Part shown: positions 27,289 to 43,402 of the stretch, in pieces | How the letters are laid out: each line of letters opens with the position of its first letter | How positions within the stretch are numbered: position 1 is the stretch's first letter | Source of the DNA: an uncultured Acetobacteraceae bacterium | GTDB lineage: Bacteria; Pseudomonadota; Alphaproteobacteria; Acetobacterales; Acetobacteraceae | DNA length: 64,000 bases | NCBI GenBank assembly: GCA_903907955.1 | Contig: CAIVPZ010000041.1 | Location: 124,001 to 188,000 of the forward strand | Direction: 5' to 3' | Notes under the pieces: generated by a model | Database searches by the model: none | Told to the model about the DNA's origin: nothing | What the model saw: the letters and a program-made list of their open reading frames with translations, nothing else | Program-made: the position numbers and the translations under genes

Positions 27289-27756
27289 ATGACCACCCCC
27301 ATGTATACGCGGCCGTTCCCGCGCTTCGCCCTGATCGGCGCCGGGGTGCTGATCGTGGCGACAATCACCGTCGCCGCGGTCGTGCAATATCTCGGTGTCG
27401 ATACTTTCCCGCCGACTGCTGCGGTTCTGGCGTCGCGCGATCTGCGCTTCGAGGACCAAGCCGACGGGTCGGTCAGAGTGATCAACGGGGCCGATGGCTC
27501 GGTGCTTCAGGTGCTGGCGCCCGGCACCAATGGCTTCCTGCGTGGCACGCTGCGGGGTTTCGCCCGCGAGCGCCGGCTTGAGGCGATCGGCCCCGCCACG
27601 CCGTTCCGCCTGACCGCCTACGCCGATGGACGCCTGGTCCTGGAGGACACGGAAACCGGCCGCCGCACCGACCTGGAGGCGTTCGGTCACAGCAATGTGG
27701 AAGTCTTCTCGCGCTTCCTGCCACCCCCGAGCGCCAGACCCGGCGCCAGGCCATGA
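27289..27756 (+). CDS. puhC: Photosynthetic complex assembly protein PuhC
   Basis: 155 residues: one N-terminal transmembrane helix (FALIGAGVLIVATITVAAVV) and a periplasmic domain with RDLRFEDQADGSVRVINGAD and VLQVLAPGTNGFLRGTLRGF, typical of PuhC. It is needed for LH1-RC organisation in Rhodobacter. It lies 13 bases after puhB and overlaps the next small gene by four bases. Confidence 0.92.
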   Translation: MTTPMYTRPFPRFALIGAGVLIVATITVAAVVQYLGVDTFPPTAAVLASRDLRFEDQADGSVRVINGADGSVLQVLAPGTNGFLRGTLRGFARERRLEAIGPATPFRLTAYADGRLVLEDTETGRRTDLEAFGHSNVEVFSRFLPPPSARPGARP

Positions 27757-28037
27757 TTTTCGGTCCCCGCACCGTTGATGTCACCTGCATGGTGGACATC
27801 GAACAGACGCCCGAGAGCCTGCACGCCCACGCGATCCCCGACGGCATCGACATCCGCCCGGGCGATAGGGTGATCGTGCATGGCGCCCCCACCGAAGTTC
27901 GTTTCGGCGACCATGTGACGCTGCAGTGCCGCGCGACGGTGATCCGCGCGGGCTGGCTGAAACGGCTCTGGACAAGAAAAACCAGCCTCTTCGCGCTCTC
28001 TGAGCTCTACGAAGTGGGCTTCCAACGGGGGACCTGA
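27753..28037 (+). CDS. Small conserved-position protein between puhC and acsF (94 aa)
   Basis: A 94-residue soluble protein without signal or membrane segments. Visible features are IRPGDRVIVHGAPTEVRFGD, a C-terminal basic stretch (RAGWLKRLWTRKTSL) and a final LFALSELYEVGFQRGT. It is coupled by ATGA to puhC and its stop abuts acsF. A small gene at this place occurs in other purple bacterial clusters, but I cannot assign a function. A role in complex assembly or cyclase support is a guess from context. Confidence 0.75.
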   Translation: MIFGPRTVDVTCMVDIEQTPESLHAHAIPDGIDIRPGDRVIVHGAPTEVRFGDHVTLQCRATVIRAGWLKRLWTRKTSLFALSELYEVGFQRGT

Positions 28038-29111
28038 ATGGACGCTCTGACGGATCCGCGGCCGGACCAGTTCATAAACGAGACGACACGGCTGGCGCAG
28101 GCGAACACGGTGCTGGCGCCCCGCTTCTACACCACCGACTTCGCCGCCATGGACAGGTTCGGCGTCTCGGCGGTGGGTGCGGAGTGGGACGAACTGATGG
28201 CCGAGTTCGCCCGCGACACCAACCGCGGCCATTTCATTCGCAACGAGGATTTTGACCTCGACCTGTCCACCCTGCCGCCGGAGCTGAAGCGCGAGTTCAT
28301 CGACTTCCTGGTCAGCTCGGTGACGGCGGAATTCTCCGGTTGCGTGCTGTACGCGGAAATCAAGAAGCGCATCAGCAACCCGAAAATCCGCGACTGGTTC
28401 GGCTACATGGCCCGCGACGAGGCGCGGCATGCCGGGTTCATCAACGACACGCTGAAGGATTTCGGCGTCGGCGTGGACCTCGGCTTCCTCACCAAAGCGA
28501 AGAAGTACACCTACTTCCAGCCGAAATTCATCTTCTACGCCGTCTACCTGTCGGAGAAGATCGGCTACGCCCGCTACATCACCATCTTCCGCCAGTTTGA
28601 ACGCCACCCGGAACTGCGTTTCCATCCCATCTTCAAATGGTTCGAGAACTGGTGCCAGGACGAGTTCCGCCACGGCGAGGCGTTCGCCATGGCGATGCGC
28701 GCCAACCCACGGCTGCTGAGCGGCGGCAACAAGCTGTGGATCAAGTTCTTCCTGCTCTCGGTCTATGCCACGATGTATGTGCGCGACCATGCGCGGCCGG
28801 CCTTCCACGCGGCGCTCGGCGTCGATCCCACCGAGTACGGCTACCAGGTGTTCGGCATCACCAACGAGATCACCAAACAGGTGTTCCCGCTGACCCTCGA
28901 CATCGATGCGCCAGCCTTCCGCGCCGGCATGGAACGGCTGTGGCAGGTTTCGCGGGCGCTGGCGGCGGCGCGCGCGCAGGGCGGCGTGCTCGCCCGGCTG
29001 AAGCAGGTCGGGCTGACCGCTGCCGCCGCGGCGACCATCCTGCGGCTTTACCTGGTGCCGGCAAAGCCGAACGAGCTGCCCGCCCGGGTACGGCTCGCCG
29101 CTGCCTGGTAG
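28038..29111 (+). CDS. acsF: Aerobic Mg-protoporphyrin IX monomethyl ester cyclase AcsF
   Basis: 357 residues, ferritin-like diiron oxygenase. Iron ligands are visible in [35 protein letters not shown] and [15 protein letters not shown] (DE.RH patterns). It forms ring E (protochlorophyllide) with molecular oxygen. The ATG follows the previous stop directly. The anaerobic counterpart bchE is also in this window, so both routes are available. Confidence 0.97.
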
Positions 29112-29126
29112 AGCGAAACATTCCCG

Positions 29127-30899
29127 ATGTCCCACTACGTCTATCCCGCGCTGCACGCCCTGTTCATCTGGTGGTTCAGCACCGGCCTGGTGATCTATCT
29201 GGACGGTCTGCCGCGCCGGACCTTCAAATGGACGATGCTGGGCGCGACGGTGCTGCTGGCGCTGTCGCTGGCGGGGCTCGCTTTCAGCGGCGATGACCGC
29301 AGTGTCGGCGGCGCCTACCAGGCATTCACCTATGGTCTGCTGGCCTGGGCATGGCTGGAGGTGAGTTTCTATCTCGGCTACGTCACCGGCGTGCGCAAGC
29401 AGGCCTGCCCGGAAGGCTGCCGCGGCTGGCGGCATTTCGGGCACGCCGTGCAGGCCTGCCTCTGGCACGAACTCGCAATCCTGGCGCTGGCGGCGGCGGT
29501 GATCGGTGTCACCTGGGGCCGGCCGAACCAGATCGGCACCTGGACGTTCATGGTGCTGTGGTGGATGCACCAAAGCGCACGGCTGAACGTGTTCCTCGGC
29601 GTGCGCAACCTCAACGAGGAATTCATCCCCGACCACCTTGCGTTCCTCAAGAGCTTTTTCCGCAAGGCGCCGATGAACCTGCTGTTTCCGGTTTCGGTGT
29701 CGGTGTCCACCGTGGTGGCGGCGATGCTGTTCCGGCACGCCCTGACGGCCGATGCCGCCACGGCCGCCGGATACACCTTCGTCGCCACGCTGATGACGCT
29801 GGCGATCCTGGAGCACTGGTTCCTGGTATTGCCGCTGCCGGCGGCGGCGCTGTGGCAATGGAGTCTGCAGTCGCATCGCCCGCCGCACGGCTTTGATGTC
29901 GAGGTGGTCTCGGGTTTTTTCGGCGCCGGCAAGACCAGCTTCCTGCGCCGGCGGCTGGAACGGATCGATCCGGCGGTGTGCACGCTGGTGCTGGTGGCCG
30001 ATCCCGAAGCGATGCATCTGGACACCGCGCTGCTGCGCGGCCGCGGCCAGGGGACCAAGGCGGGCGGTGCCGTGTTCCTGCCGCTGGCGCGAAACCTGTC
30101 GGTGCAGATACGCGAGTCGGCGATCCGCTGGTCGCCGCACCGCATCATCATCGAGCCGTCCGGCAGCGCCGATCTCGGTGCGCTGCTCGGCCTGCTGGCG
30201 CGTCCTGATCTGAAGCCGCTGGTGAGCAGCGTGCAGGTGACGGCGATCATCGACGCCGGCGCATTCCTGCGCGACTACGCCAGGCTGGAGCGCCATTTCG
30301 AGCAACAGGCGACGCTCGCGCATACCCTGGTGGTGAACAAGACCGATCTGGTCGCGCCGGCGGAGTTGCGCATGGTCGAGGCGACGCTGCGCGAGCTGAA
30401 CCCGCTGGCGCAAATCGTTCCGGCCACGCACGGCGCGTTGCGCGCCGTGATGCCGCGTGCCACGATCCGGCAGGGCGATATCGCCGGGAACGGCCTCACG
30501 GCGCGGCCGGACGGCGTCGCGGCCTGGGACATGACCATCGACGAGGCAACCGGCCTGGTTGAAGCCCGACATTTCGATCCGCAGTCGGACCCGCTTGGCT
30601 TCGCGACCTGGAGCACCACGTTGCCCGGAAGCTGCGATCCGCAACTGCTGCAGGAACTGCTCGAAGCCGTGGCCGACGGAGCGTTCGGCCAGATCGAGCG
30701 GGTGAAGGGCGTGGTGCGGTCCGGCATGGGATGGGTGCGGTTCGATTGTTCCGGCGGCCGACCAAACCTGCTGGCCTTTGCGGCTGGCGAGGACGAGACG
30801 CCCCGTCTGGTCGCGGTGGGACGCGAGATTGACCGCGGCCGGTTGCAGGCGGCGTTCGCGGCCTGCACCATGCCGCCGGCGCGCATGAACAGAACTTAA
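29127..30899 (+). CDS. puhE: PuhE (DUF3623) fused to a CobW-like G3E GTPase
   Basis: 590 residues in one uninterrupted frame. Residues 1 to about 250 are PuhE, a multi-helix membrane assembly protein (YVYPALHALFIWWFSTGLVI, WWMHQSARLNVFLGVRNLNE). From about residue 255 a COG0523/CobW-type GTPase follows, with Walker A GFFGAGKTS at 263-271, IIIEPSGSADLGALL, the guanine motif NKTDLV and a C-terminal domain (QIERVKGVVRSGMGWVRFD). The CxCC metal-binding motif of this family is absent; the aligned stretch reads AGGAVFLPLARNL. CobW-type proteins insert or deliver metals in known cases. The neighbours acsF (diiron) and hemA make a role in cofactor loading or assembly possible, but unproven. I know of no standard annotation for this fusion. 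Confidence 0.88.
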   Translation: MSHYVYPALHALFIWWFSTGLVIYLDGLPRRTFKWTMLGATVLLALSLAGLAFSGDDRSVGGAYQAFTYGLLAWAWLEVSFYLGYVTGVRKQACPEGCRGWRHFGHAVQACLWHELAILALAAAVIGVTWGRPNQIGTWTFMVLWWMHQSARLNVFLGVRNLNEEFIPDHLAFLKSFFRKAPMNLLFPVSVSVSTVVAAMLFRHALTADAATAAGYTFVATLMTLAILEHWFLVLPLPAAALWQWSLQSHRPPHGFDVEVVSGFFGAGKTSFLRRRLERIDPAVCTLVLVADPEAMHLDTALLRGRGQGTKAGGAVFLPLARNLSVQIRESAIRWSPHRIIIEPSGSADLGALLGLLARPDLKPLVSSVQVTAIIDAGAFLRDYARLERHFEQQATLAHTLVVNKTDLVAPAELRMVEATLRELNPLAQIVPATHGALRAVMPRATIRQGDIAGNGLTARPDGVAAWDMTIDEATGLVEARHFDPQSDPLGFATWSTTLPGSCDPQLLQELLEAVADGAFGQIERVKGVVRSGMGWVRFDCSGGRPNLLAFAAGEDETPRLVAVGREIDRGRLQAAFAACTMPPARMNRT

Positions 30900-30981
30900 C
30901 TTCGGCGAATACTCTGCGCGCGAAAGTATCGTGTAAAACGGCACTACCGCGCTCAAGACGGTGCCAATTCGGAGGCCATGC

Positions 30982-32193
30982 ATGAACTACGAAGCCTTCT
31001 TCAGCAAACAACTCGATGGCCTCCGTCGTGAGGGTCGCTACCGGGTGTTCGCCGACCTCGAACGCCATGTGGGCGAGTTCCCGCGCGCCACGCACCATCG
31101 TGAGCGCGGACCAAACAAGGTGACAGTGTGGTGCTCCAACGATTACCTCGGCATGGGGCAGCATCCTGAGGTGCTGGCAGCCATGCATGAGGCGCTGGAC
31201 CGGTGCGGTGCGGGTGCGGGTGGCACGCGCAACATCTCGGGCACCAACCACTACCATGTGCTGCTCGAGCGCGAGCTCGCCGACCTGCACGGCACTGAGG
31301 CGGCGCTGCTGTTCAACTCGGGCTACATGTCGAACTGGGCAACGCTGACCACCCTGGCGGCGCGCATCCCGGGCTGCGTGGTGGTGTCGGACGAGCTGAT
31401 CCACGCCTCGATGATCGAGGGCGTGCGGCACAGCCGTGCCGAGAAGCGCATCTTCGCCCATAATGATCCCGCCGACCTCGAACGGCAGCTTGTCGAGATC
31501 GGGCCGGACCGGCCGAAGCTGGTGGCTTTCGAATCGGTCTACTCGATGGACGGCGACATCGCCCCGATCGCTGAAATCCTCGACATCTGCGACAAGCACA
31601 ACGCGATGACCTACATCGACGAGGTGCACGCGGTGGGCATGTATGGCCCGCGCGGCGGCGGCGTCGCCGAACGCGAGGGGCTGTCGCACCGGCTGACGGT
31701 GATCGAGGGCACGCTCGGCAAGGCGTTCGGCGTGGCCGGCGGCTATATCGCCGGCTCGGCCGCGATGTGCGATTTCGTGCGCAGCTTCGCCTCCGGCTTC
31801 ATCTTCACCACCTCCATTCCGCCGTCGGTGGCGGCGGGCGCAATCGCCAGCATCCGCCATCTCAAGGCCAGCGATGCCGAGCGCCTTGCCCAGCGGGACC
31901 GCGTTGCCCGGGTGCGCCGCCGGCTCGAGGAGGTCGGCGTGCCGCATCTCGAAAATCCAAGCCACATTGTGCCGGTGATGGTCAACGATGCGGTTATCTG
32001 CAAGCAGATCGGCGACCAGCTGCTTGATCACCACGGCATCTATGTGCAGCCGATCAACTACCCGACCGTGCCGCGCGGCACCGAGCGCCTGCGGTTCACG
32101 CCGGGGCCGCTCCACACCGATGCCGACATCGAACACCTGGTATCGTCGCTGTCGGCCATCTGGTCGCAGTTCAGCCTGCAGCGCGCTGCCTGA
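30982..32193 (+). CDS. hemA: 5-aminolevulinate synthase HemA
   Basis: 403 residues from ATG at 30982 with GGAGG seven bases before. It is a PLP enzyme of the alpha-oxoamine synthase family: [20 protein letters not shown], the Asp site [14 protein letters not shown], and the PLP lysine in [16 protein letters not shown]. It condenses glycine and succinyl-CoA, the first step of tetrapyrrole synthesis by the C4 route. It ends the long bchF-hemA unit and is followed by a strong hairpin. Its inclusion in the cluster ties precursor supply to pigment synthesis. Confidence 0.96.
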
Positions 32194-32326: not shown

Positions 32327-32584
32327 GTGAGCAACAACGAAATCAAGACGTCGCGCCGCACCGTCCTGTGTGCAGGCGCCGCCGCCGTCGCCGCCGTCGG
32401 CATTGCCGGCCGTGCGGTCGCGCAGGAAAAGATCGACAAGTCGATCGTCATGTACCAGGACAAGCCGCACGAGGGTCAGCAGTGCGACAAGTGCCTGCAG
32501 TTCGTGGCGCCCAACTCCTGTACCATCGTGGCCGGGGTGATCAGCCCGACCGGCTGGTGCGGCGCCTTCGCACCCAAGCCGTAA
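32327..32584 (+). CDS. hip: High-potential iron-sulfur protein (HiPIP) precursor
   Basis: 85 residues from GTG at 32327. A Tat signal (TSRRTVLCAGAAAVAAVGIA, cleavage after AVAQ) leaves a mature protein of about 52 residues. The four cluster Cys are in QCDKCLQFVAPNSC and PTGWCGAFAP (spacing C-x2-C-x8-C-x12-C), with the typical GWC near the end. HiPIPs carry electrons in the periplasm from bc1 to the reaction-centre cytochrome. This is among the shortest of the family. Position between hemA and bchI, flanked by hairpins on both sides, suggests its own transcript. Confidence 0.92.
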   Translation: MSNNEIKTSRRTVLCAGAAAVAAVGIAGRAVAQEKIDKSIVMYQDKPHEGQQCDKCLQFVAPNSCTIVAGVISPTGWCGAFAPKP

Positions 32585-41611: not shown

Positions 41612-43402
41612 ATGCGCGTGATGATGATCCAGCCAAACTACCATTCCGGCGGTGCTGAAATCGCCGGCAATTGGCCACCAGGCTGGGTGGCTTATATCGG
41701 CGGCGCGCTGAAGACGGCGGGTATCACCAATATCCGCTTCGTCGATGCGATGACCAACTACATCCCGGACGACAAGCTCGCCGAGATGATCCGCGCGCTG
41801 AATCCCGACGTGGTGATGGCGACCGCCATCACCCCGATGATCTATCAGGCGCAGACCACCCTGAAGATCGCGCGGGAAGCGGCACCGAACGCCATCACCA
41901 TCCTTGGCGGCATCCACCCCACCTTCATGTACGCGCAGGTGCTCAGCGAGGCGCCGTGGATCGACTACATCGTGCGCGGCGAGGGCGAGGAGATCACCGT
42001 CAACCTGATGCGCGCCATCCAGGACGGCACGCATCTGGCGCAGCGGCGCGAGATCAAGGGGCTGGCCTTCCTGGAAGACGGCCAGCTGGTGGCGACGCCG
42101 GCCCACCCGGTGATCAAGGACCTCGACAGCCTGACTCCGGACTGGTCGATCCTGGAGTGGGACAAATACATCTACACCCCGCTGAACTGCCGGGTGGCGG
42201 TGCCCAACTTCGCGCGCGGCTGCCCGTTCACCTGCCGGTTCTGTTCGCAGTGGAAGTTCTGGCGCCAGTACCGCACCCGCGACCCGAAGAAGTTCGTGGA
42301 CGAGGTCGAGTCGCTGGTGCGCGACCACAATGTCGGATTCTTCATCCTCGCCGACGAGGAACCGACCATCAACCGCAAGAAGTTCATCCGCCTCTGCGAG
42401 GAGCTGATTGCGCGCAACCTGCCGGTGCACTGGGGCATCAACACCCGCGTCACCGACATCCTGCGCGACCGCGAATTGCTGCCGATGTTCCGCAAGGCGG
42501 GCCTGGTGCACGTTTCGCTCGGCACCGAGGCGGCGGCCCAGCTCAAGCTCGATCTGTTCCGCAAGGAAACCACCATCGAGCAGAACAAGCTGGCGGTGAA
42601 GCTGCTGCGCGACGCCGGCATGGTCGCCGAGGTGCAGTTCATCATGGGGCTGGAGAACGAGACCCCGGAGACCATCGAGGAGACCTACCGGCTGGGGCTG
42701 GACTGGAAGGCCGACATGGTCAACTGGAACTGCTACACGCCGTGGCCATTCGCCGAGCTGTTCGAGGATCTGGGCGACAAGGTCGAGGTCCGCGACTACT
42801 CGAAATACAACTTCGTCACGCCGATCATGAAGCCGGACGCCATGACCCGCGAGCAGGTGCTCAAGGGCGTGATGAAGAACTACGCACGCTTCTACCTGCG
42901 GAAGACCTTCTTCGGGTATCCGTGGATTCGCGACAAGTGGAAGCGCAAGTACATGCTGGGCTGCCTGAAGGCGTTCGCCAAGACCACGTGGGAAAAGAAA
43001 TTCTACGATCTTGAGCGGTTGAAGTTCAACGGCATGTCGTCGGAGTGGGAACTCGGCTTCGACCAGAGCAAGGTGCTGACCTCCGAGCAGATCCAGGATG
43101 CCAAGCGCCTGCGGCCCGACCTTGCCGCCGACGTCAACTTCAAGGGCACGCCGTCGATCATCGGCAAATGCGCGCCGACCAACGACAGCCAGTACTTGCA
43201 AGTGCCGGCCGGACGCGGCAAGGCCGAAATCATCTCGGCCTGTGGCGCGCCGAACGACCTGCAGTACGACGAGGACGCGGTGGTGACGGCCTGCGGTGCG
43301 CCCAACCACCTGCACTACGACGAGGATGAGGCGGCGCCGGCGGCGGCGGAGCCCAGCCATCCGAAAGTGCCCGACAAGGCCGTTGCCGCACCACCGCGCT
43401 AG
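41612..43402 (+). CDS. bchE: Anaerobic Mg-protoporphyrin IX monomethyl ester cyclase BchE
   Basis: 596 residues. The N-terminal cobalamin-binding-type domain (residues 1-170; IQPNYHSGGAEIAGNWPPGW, ATAITPMIYQAQTTLKIA) is followed by a radical SAM domain with ARGCPFTCRFCSQWKFWR carrying the CxxxCxxC cluster site. It forms ring E with water-derived oxygen without O2. The C-terminal tail after about residue 510 carries repeated Cys motifs (KCAPTNDSQY, ACGAPNDLQYDED, ACGAPNHLHYDED), with an Ala/Pro end. The FNR-type box upstream suits anaerobic expression. Confidence 0.96.
   Translation: MRVMMIQPNYHSGGAEIAGNWPPGWVAYIGGALKTAGITNIRFVDAMTNYIPDDKLAEMIRALNPDVVMATAITPMIYQAQTTLKIAREAAPNAITILGGIHPTFMYAQVLSEAPWIDYIVRGEGEEITVNLMRAIQDGTHLAQRREIKGLAFLEDGQLVATPAHPVIKDLDSLTPDWSILEWDKYIYTPLNCRVAVPNFARGCPFTCRFCSQWKFWRQYRTRDPKKFVDEVESLVRDHNVGFFILADEEPTINRKKFIRLCEELIARNLPVHWGINTRVTDILRDRELLPMFRKAGLVHVSLGTEAAAQLKLDLFRKETTIEQNKLAVKLLRDAGMVAEVQFIMGLENETPETIEETYRLGLDWKADMVNWNCYTPWPFAELFEDLGDKVEVRDYSKYNFVTPIMKPDAMTREQVLKGVMKNYARFYLRKTFFGYPWIRDKWKRKYMLGCLKAFAKTTWEKKFYDLERLKFNGMSSEWELGFDQSKVLTSEQIQDAKRLRPDLAADVNFKGTPSIIGKCAPTNDSQYLQVPAGRGKAEIISACGAPNDLQYDEDAVVTACGAPNHLHYDEDEAAPAAAEPSHPKVPDKAVAAPPR

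Follow-up and report, generated by a model that had tools for sequence, protein, structure and literature searches.

Does a gene that joins the photosynthetic assembly factor PuhE to a CobW-type GTPase encode a membrane-tethered device for metal loading? The question arose from one gene in the window, i.e. the whole 64,000-nucleotide stretch of DNA from an uncultured Acetobacteraceae bacterium that was analysed here, whose product a first-pass annotation had read as a GTPase gating cofactor loading or assembly, for example of the diiron protein AcsF or of reaction centres. PuhE of Rhodobacter capsulatus is a putative modulator that lowers bacteriochlorophyll production. A literature search found no title or abstract describing a PuhE–GTPase fusion, a mention inside a full text being possible. 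On balance, we lean towards a PuhE factor with a fused COG0523-type GTPase and a CobW_C domain, the metal-carrying function of which has been lost.

Gene and domain architecture

The fusion gene (29127–30899, + strand) starts with ATG and encodes 590 residues in a frame without an internal stop, and Pfam recognised both DUF3623 and cobW in the product, in agreement with the single frame described previously. The PuhE domain (residues 1–251; 29127–29879, +) was delimited with Pfam, NCBIfam and an AF2 model, and corresponds to the full PuhE model (TIGR03055/PF12291, DUF3623), with E 2e-109 and 365 bits over profile positions 1–253 of 256 in Pfam and 317.9 bits against a cut-off of 164.05 for TIGR03055. 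Seven long helices precede the G domain in the AF2 models (mean pLDDT 79 and 81, with low values in the loops), and DUF3623 is described as having seven transmembrane segments in a passage of PMC12423673. The same paper rejects, on grounds of fold, a place for DUF3623 among the transmembrane acyltransferases as a superfamily.

The remaining 340 residues, an extra GTPase half by which the protein differs from PuhE, comprise a CobW-type G domain (residues 258–431; 29898–30419, +; Pfam PF02492, E 2e-20, 73.6 bits against a cut-off of 20.7) and a CobW_C domain (residues 492–580; 30600–30866, +; Pfam PF07683, E 5e-10, 39.6 bits against a cut-off of 22). The latter, which is also related to the tails of the PuhE–CobW_C proteins described below, was missed by the first-pass annotation, the assignment of PuhE and a CobW-like GTPase being otherwise correct. 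The G domain was further supported by fold matches in the PDB, among the best 50 of 1331 of which the closest was E. coli YjiA (4ixn, 4ixm and 1nij; E 1e-11 to 5e-11), matched by sequence alone only at E 0.075. As these best 50 of 1331 matches were all GTPases, they are uninformative on PuhE.

Walker A (GFFGAGKTS, residues 263–271; 29913–29939, +) and NKTD (residues 404–407; 30336–30347, +) are intact in the translation and in the alignment of relatives, as had been claimed, and the translation also contains EPSG (residues 343–346; 30153–30164, +). Through its P-loop, EPSG, NKxD and CobW_C, the protein resembles the COG0523/CobW G3E GTPases, which include YjiA, ZigA, CobW and the nitrile hydratase activators, and it differs from them in being tethered to the membrane by the PuhE fusion and in lacking CXCC. 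With the ZigA model NF038288 it scored 38.5 bits, below the cut-off of 600. Residues 225–271, which extend through the P-loop, offer just two in-frame start-like codons, TTG235 and GTG260. A crude check revealed no Shine–Dalgarno stretch at either, nor at the ATG of the gene itself and, since this ATG fails equally, the check says little on separate translation of the GTPase.

Distribution of the fusion

Full-length loci with PuhE, G domain and CobW_C number 67, duplicates and the two copies of the window included, a recurrence that exceeds chance. A scan of public genomes returned 46 loci, in 43 of which the frame extends to the P-loop, the exceptions being L043, L044 (cut at a contig end) and L048. 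The hosts comprise Acidiphilium rubrum, Acidocella, Lichenicoccus, Fulvimarina, Aurantimonas, Jiella, Pararhizobium mangrovi and Lichenibacterium, and full fusions occur in named isolates including A. rubrum, Fulvimarina pelagi, Aurantimonas endophytica, Jiella species and Lichenicoccus. DUF3623 was matched in 122 of 397 Acetobacteraceae genomes, from 109 of which 110 loci were fetched and classified as 24 full fusions, two fusions cut at contig ends, 15 loci in which PuhE is joined to CobW_C without a G domain (PuhE–CobW_C), and 69 with PuhE alone. Beyond Acetobacteraceae, one of 25 loci fetched at the level of the class (L087) was a full fusion, as was one of the 22 loci newly fetched in a survey across the phylum (L217). 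From these counts, most PuhE examined are without the GTPase half, which is nevertheless not restricted to the window genome; the possibility that it accompanies all PuhE proteins, raised at the outset, did not materialise.

Searches at E 1e-10 found no fusion-like stand-alone G domain in the 15 PuhE–CobW_C genomes and no stand-alone copy of the fusion GTPase in five of the six genomes of GTPase-less relatives from the subclade of the window (see below). Across the 30 genomes searched, the best stand-alone G domain reached 156 bits, compared with 201–528 bits for the fused ones. The PuhE–CobW_C loci thus point to a GTPase that can be dispensed with outside the window lineage. Plasmid records gave 24 matches, none of which spanned 80% of the query, and no relative was found in viral contigs.

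Several records stand apart. Two metagenome-assembled genomes (MAGs) labelled Ferrovum (L014 and L016) carry the fusion beside bchI, bchD and bchO, which reflects either transfer into iron oxidisers or misbinning. The fusion also occurs in a record titled Acidobacteria bacterium (L018), the PuhE sequence of which is the same as that of an Acetobacteraceae locus (L063, genome G080), and this record is probably mistitled. In other Acetobacteraceae, DUF3623 matched fragments that lie in separate pieces (G018:C163:54451-54755 and G178:C99:3986-4388) and may be puhE genes in decay. In the complete genome of Jiella pelagia (L041, 6001–8149), the fusion is split into two overlapping frames of 481 and 430 residues, the second containing CICC, owing to a frameshift or a sequencing error.

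Phylogeny

A tree of the PuhE domain was computed for 159 rows using a short search with SH-aLRT supports only, leaving out L042, which was too short, and L217, which was fetched later. All 51 fusion rows in the tree fell within one clade of 58 rows (SH-aLRT 97), mainly from Acetobacteraceae with some Rhizobiales, together with seven unfused rows. The 51 include L073, which stops within its Walker A at a contig end, and L044, which stops just before the linker and matches the fusion L042 at 103 of 112 residues; both are inferred to be cut fusions. The subclade of the window (10 rows, support 98) contains the intact fusion L112, three metal-less fusions—the window protein, L004 and L022—and six PuhE without the GTPase. 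Degenerate forms make up nine of its 10 rows versus one of the 48 other rows of the clade, a contrast for which the Fisher p ignores shared ancestry.

The PuhE–CobW_C rows lie outside the 58-row clade in more than one place, and their placement is unsure because some of them adjoin long branches. Their tails scored 43–85 bits with a model built from the fusion tails, with which stand-alone G3E proteins reached at most 22 bits (at most 26 without filters). In a CobW_C tree, for which nine of 23 stand-alone tails were long enough, the tails of fusions and of PuhE–CobW_C proteins were separated from the stand-alone G3E tails with 100/100 support. When the Pfam CobW_C model was applied to five PuhE–CobW_C tails, it scored above the cut-off for L121, below it for L170, and not at all for three. 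The simplest reading is one old fusion, after which some lines would have shed the G domain and others the entire tail.

Loss of the metal motif and change in the G domain

CICC is kept in 61 of the 67 full-fusion loci (duplicates and the two window copies included), and the six loci without it correspond to three proteins: that of the window (L001 and L074), L004 (L077) and L022 (L143). The absence of CxCC from the window protein, already noticed in the first reading, was evident in both the translation and the alignments, which place the missing motif at residues 313–318 (30063–30080, +), just downstream of a two-residue deletion. The linker (residues 436–489; 30432–30593, +) holds one histidine in the window protein versus 8–42 in 57 of the 67 full-fusion loci; four further loci (L014, L016, L021 and L087) have CICC and 0–3 linker histidines. 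The window protein, L004 and L022 are devoid of both CICC and the His-rich linker, yet they keep Walker A and NKxD. As the absence is limited to these three proteins among the 67 loci, it represents a lineage-specific loss. It looks to have happened independently in window/L004—which are 81–83% identical—and in L022, since the replacing sequences differ, the two-residue deletion is common to the window protein and L004 and not found in L022, and the neighbour of window/L004 in the tree (support 88) is L112, an intact fusion of the same genus.

CXCC is common to all COG0523 members according to a passage of PMC2770081, which also provides a precedent in RV0106 from Mycobacterium tuberculosis, a COG0523-like protein without the canonical motif. 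As described there, RV0106 also lacks the GTPase motifs, whereas these are retained in the window protein, which is in addition a PuhE fusion.

Evolutionary constraint was assessed by Nei–Gojobori dN/dS using our own script. Between the window protein and L004, dN/dS was 0.16 for PuhE, 0.42 for the G domain and 0.15 for CobW_C, and when compared by counts the G domain differed from CobW_C with p 0.063 and from PuhE with p 0.020. The contrast in this pair is weak. In the control pair L015/L020, the G domain is likewise faster than PuhE (p 0.014), and among six pairs with intact motifs, five have the G domain at or below CobW_C; in the sixth, L112/L047, the G domain (0.395) greatly exceeds CobW_C (0.197), which resembles the window pair, L112 being a member of the window subclade.

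A second test considered those positions for which conservation among 27 relatives was 96% or more. The window protein is changed at 20 of 60 such positions in the G domain, seven of 98 in PuhE and three of 21 in CobW_C, the corresponding changes being 21, 6 and 4 in L004, and 19, 12 and 3 in L022. With shared ancestry ignored, as in the dN/dS comparisons, the G domain was compared with the rest at p 7e-5 for the window protein—or p 0.04 once ten positions around CxCC were left out—and p 0.004 for L022. The altered positions in the window G domain include the conserved N291, F293 and G297 after strand 2.

Because the nucleotide motifs (Walker A, EPSG, NKTD) have been preserved and the dN/dS of the G domain is below 1, the GTPase may keep a use. 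One possibility is a metal-free nucleotide switch, in which the G domain of the window lineage would have been repurposed to sense GTP/GDP or another nucleotide and thereby regulate PuhE. It is favoured by this dN/dS and by the retention of the P-loop, EP[SAG]G and NKxD in all three metal-less proteins despite the other changes in the domain. However, six relatives in the same subclade have dispensed with the whole G domain, and the alterations after strand 2 speak against it as well, so that we consider such a switch rather doubtful.

Putative metal site in PuhE

The PuhE half contains C94-x3-C98-x4-H103-x2-H106 (29406–29444, +) in the loop before helix 4 and at the start of that helix, which conservation marks as a candidate metal site, perhaps cytosolic and complemented by one membrane histidine, His148 in helix 5 (29568–29570, +), at the position of which most PuhE without the GTPase have arginine. 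The four residues (window numbering) were found in 52 of 52 distinct fusion rows, none of 15 PuhE–CobW_C rows and 16 of 115 unfused PuhE, and His148 in 52, none and nine, respectively; for these counts duplicates and the short L042 were dropped, and L044, L073 and L217 were counted in. The complete set of five distinguishes the window protein from most unfused PuhE. Six of the 16 unfused carriers lie within the fusion clade and ten outside, so the site is independent of the GTPase and may be older than the fusion; shared ancestry is behind much of its association with the latter. If the GTPase is cytosolic, the C94/C98 loop and the start of helix 4 with H103 and H106 would be on the same side as the GTPase, and H148 would be inside the membrane, although the C94/C98 loop is of low confidence in the AF2 models.

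Gene neighbourhood

The gene lies between acsF (28038–29111, +) and hemA, encoding 5-aminolevulinate synthase (30961–32193, +), exactly as first described; both were identified with NCBIfam, and neighbour counts show them to be the usual upstream and downstream neighbours of puhE. NCBIfam names puhA, puhB, acsF, hemA and bchI around it, which amounts to a photosynthesis gene cluster, and two reaction-centre genes (Photo_RC, PF00124) are on the same contig. Neighbours were counted as the next matches beside puhE among 12 window genes searched. By this measure, acsF is next upstream of puhE in 63 of 67 full, 15 of 15 PuhE–CobW_C and 96 of 97 PuhE-alone loci, and acsF and hemA flank it in 43 of 67, 15 of 15 and 93 of 97, respectively, the window gene sharing this setting with most unfused puhE. 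In the full loci, bchI is next downstream of acsF–puhE in five, and no further match is found there in 15.

Four full loci are without acsF upstream, of which two (L016 and L042) start right at the edge of a contig and two lie outside the photosynthesis cluster. L007 (4390–6171) is near SNF2-helicase and NnrU genes and is the second fusion in genome G053, which has its other copy (L020/L051) within the cluster, and L021 (6001–7875) from Lichenibacterium minor is near Flp-pilus genes. Elsewhere in each of these two genomes are two PF00124 genes and one AcsF. A link with phototrophy thus holds for the most part, whereas strict confinement of the fusion to the photosynthesis cluster is ruled out by L007 and L021.

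In L042, whose source MAG bears the title Thiodictyon, a gene for a ZIP zinc transporter (1509–2315, +; PF02535, 118 bits) begins 40 bases beyond the end of the fusion, in the same orientation. This hints at zinc, in a single case: tblastn found no homologue in any other locus of the neighbourhood database, which rules out a zinc transporter as a constant neighbour. DUF3623 is matched three times in the L042 genome, and two of the matches are close relatives that are not identical.

Other genes of the window cluster were recorded alongside. An ORF of 94 residues between puhC and acsF (27753–28037, +), without a Pfam or NCBIfam match, was matched by tblastn in 60 of 67 full, 15 of 15 PuhE–CobW_C and 91 of 97 PuhE-alone loci, and from its place it is a candidate for BciE, the alphaproteobacterial partner of AcsF. 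Downstream of hemA, a small HiPIP-like protein (32327–32581, +) scored 73.2 bits with the iron-oxidase Iro model, below the cut-off of 100. A BchE gene (41615–43099, +; 811.7 bits, above the cut-off) is present alongside acsF, and therefore both an oxygen-dependent and an oxygen-independent cyclase are encoded. Across 64 genomes, BchE exceeded the cut-off in seven of 21 with a CxCC fusion, two of three with a metal-less fusion, three of six with GTPase-less members of the window subclade, seven of 15 with PuhE–CobW_C and six of 19 others with PuhE alone. No clear pattern links BchE with the fusion (six of 10 in the window subclade versus six of 20 for other CxCC fusions, p 0.14).

The neighbourhood bears on the proposal that the window protein is a working membrane-tethered GTPase, which would use other metal residues to gate metal loading of AcsF or of reaction-centre cofactors. 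The intact nucleotide motifs, the putative Cys/His site kept in the PuhE half and the adjoining acsF are in its favour. However, CxCC and the His-rich linker are both absent from the window lineage, one third of the otherwise conserved G-domain positions are changed (20 of 60), and L007 and L021 are not near acsF. Moreover, puhE is preceded by acsF whether or not it carries the GTPase, equally often when unfused, so this adjacency is no evidence of AcsF as the client, and the neighbourhood in general is uninformative for naming one. This reading, which in essence was that of the first-pass annotation, is therefore unlikely for the window protein, and AcsF as its client is unsupported by position. 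Finally, an artefact of assembly or sequencing, or a chimeric contig, is a negligible prospect even with the window genome in 176 contigs and many relatives being MAGs, as the fusion recurs in named isolates and the missing CxCC is common to the window protein and L004.

Mechanistic reading and zinc hypothesis

We read the window protein, from comparison with its relatives, as a partly dismantled fusion rather than a working metal chaperone. An old gene fusion would have given the PuhE assembly factor a cytosolic COG0523-type GTPase with CobW_C. In the wider family, we infer that the GTPase, endowed with CICC and usually a His-rich linker, would acquire a transition metal, zinc being the likeliest, and that GTP binding or hydrolysis would control its hand-over at the membrane, where the nearest candidate acceptor is the C94/C98/H103/H106 site, which faces the same side. 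Tethered in this manner, the GTPase would act on PuhE or a nearby client, the identity of the metal, the direction of transfer and any effect on pigment or reaction-centre assembly being putative in this scheme. In the window lineage, the carrier motifs are missing and the G domain is seemingly less constrained. With the metal relay gone, the protein is best read as probably still a PuhE, in which CobW_C would serve for docking or regulation and the residual G domain, on its way out, may be a nucleotide switch at most.

The fusion family may be considered a candidate zinc handler for the assembly of bacteriochlorophyll, above all in Acidiphilium with its Zn-bacteriochlorophyll. The possible tie to this pigment stems from the intact fusion of A. 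rubrum (L023) and from a statement in a passage of PMC4944227 that the Acidiphilium magnesium chelatase inserts Mg, later entry of zinc being proposed; a passage of PMC12654162 calls the entry of zinc into the pigment uncertain. A specific version, in which intact fusions would serve membrane-bound zinc delivery or sensing for bacteriochlorophyll, with the CICC/His-linker GTPase charging the CCHH site of PuhE and aiding Mg-to-Zn exchange in Acidiphilium, is in our view quite improbable. Intact fusions in Aurantimonas, Fulvimarina and Jiella, for which we know of no report of a zinc pigment, count against the tie.

If true, charging of the CCHH site would couple zinc supply to pigment assembly, the Acidiphilium fusion would help the Mg-to-Zn exchange that leads to Zn-bacteriochlorophyll, and the window lineage would be a natural loss-of-metal mutant of a zinc device. 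The full fusion, the metal-less fusion of the window, PuhE–CobW_C and PuhE alone form a natural series for testing. The fusion places a zinc-chaperone-type GTPase in the bacteriochlorophyll and reaction-centre gene set of a phototroph clade that includes a genus with Zn-bacteriochlorophyll.
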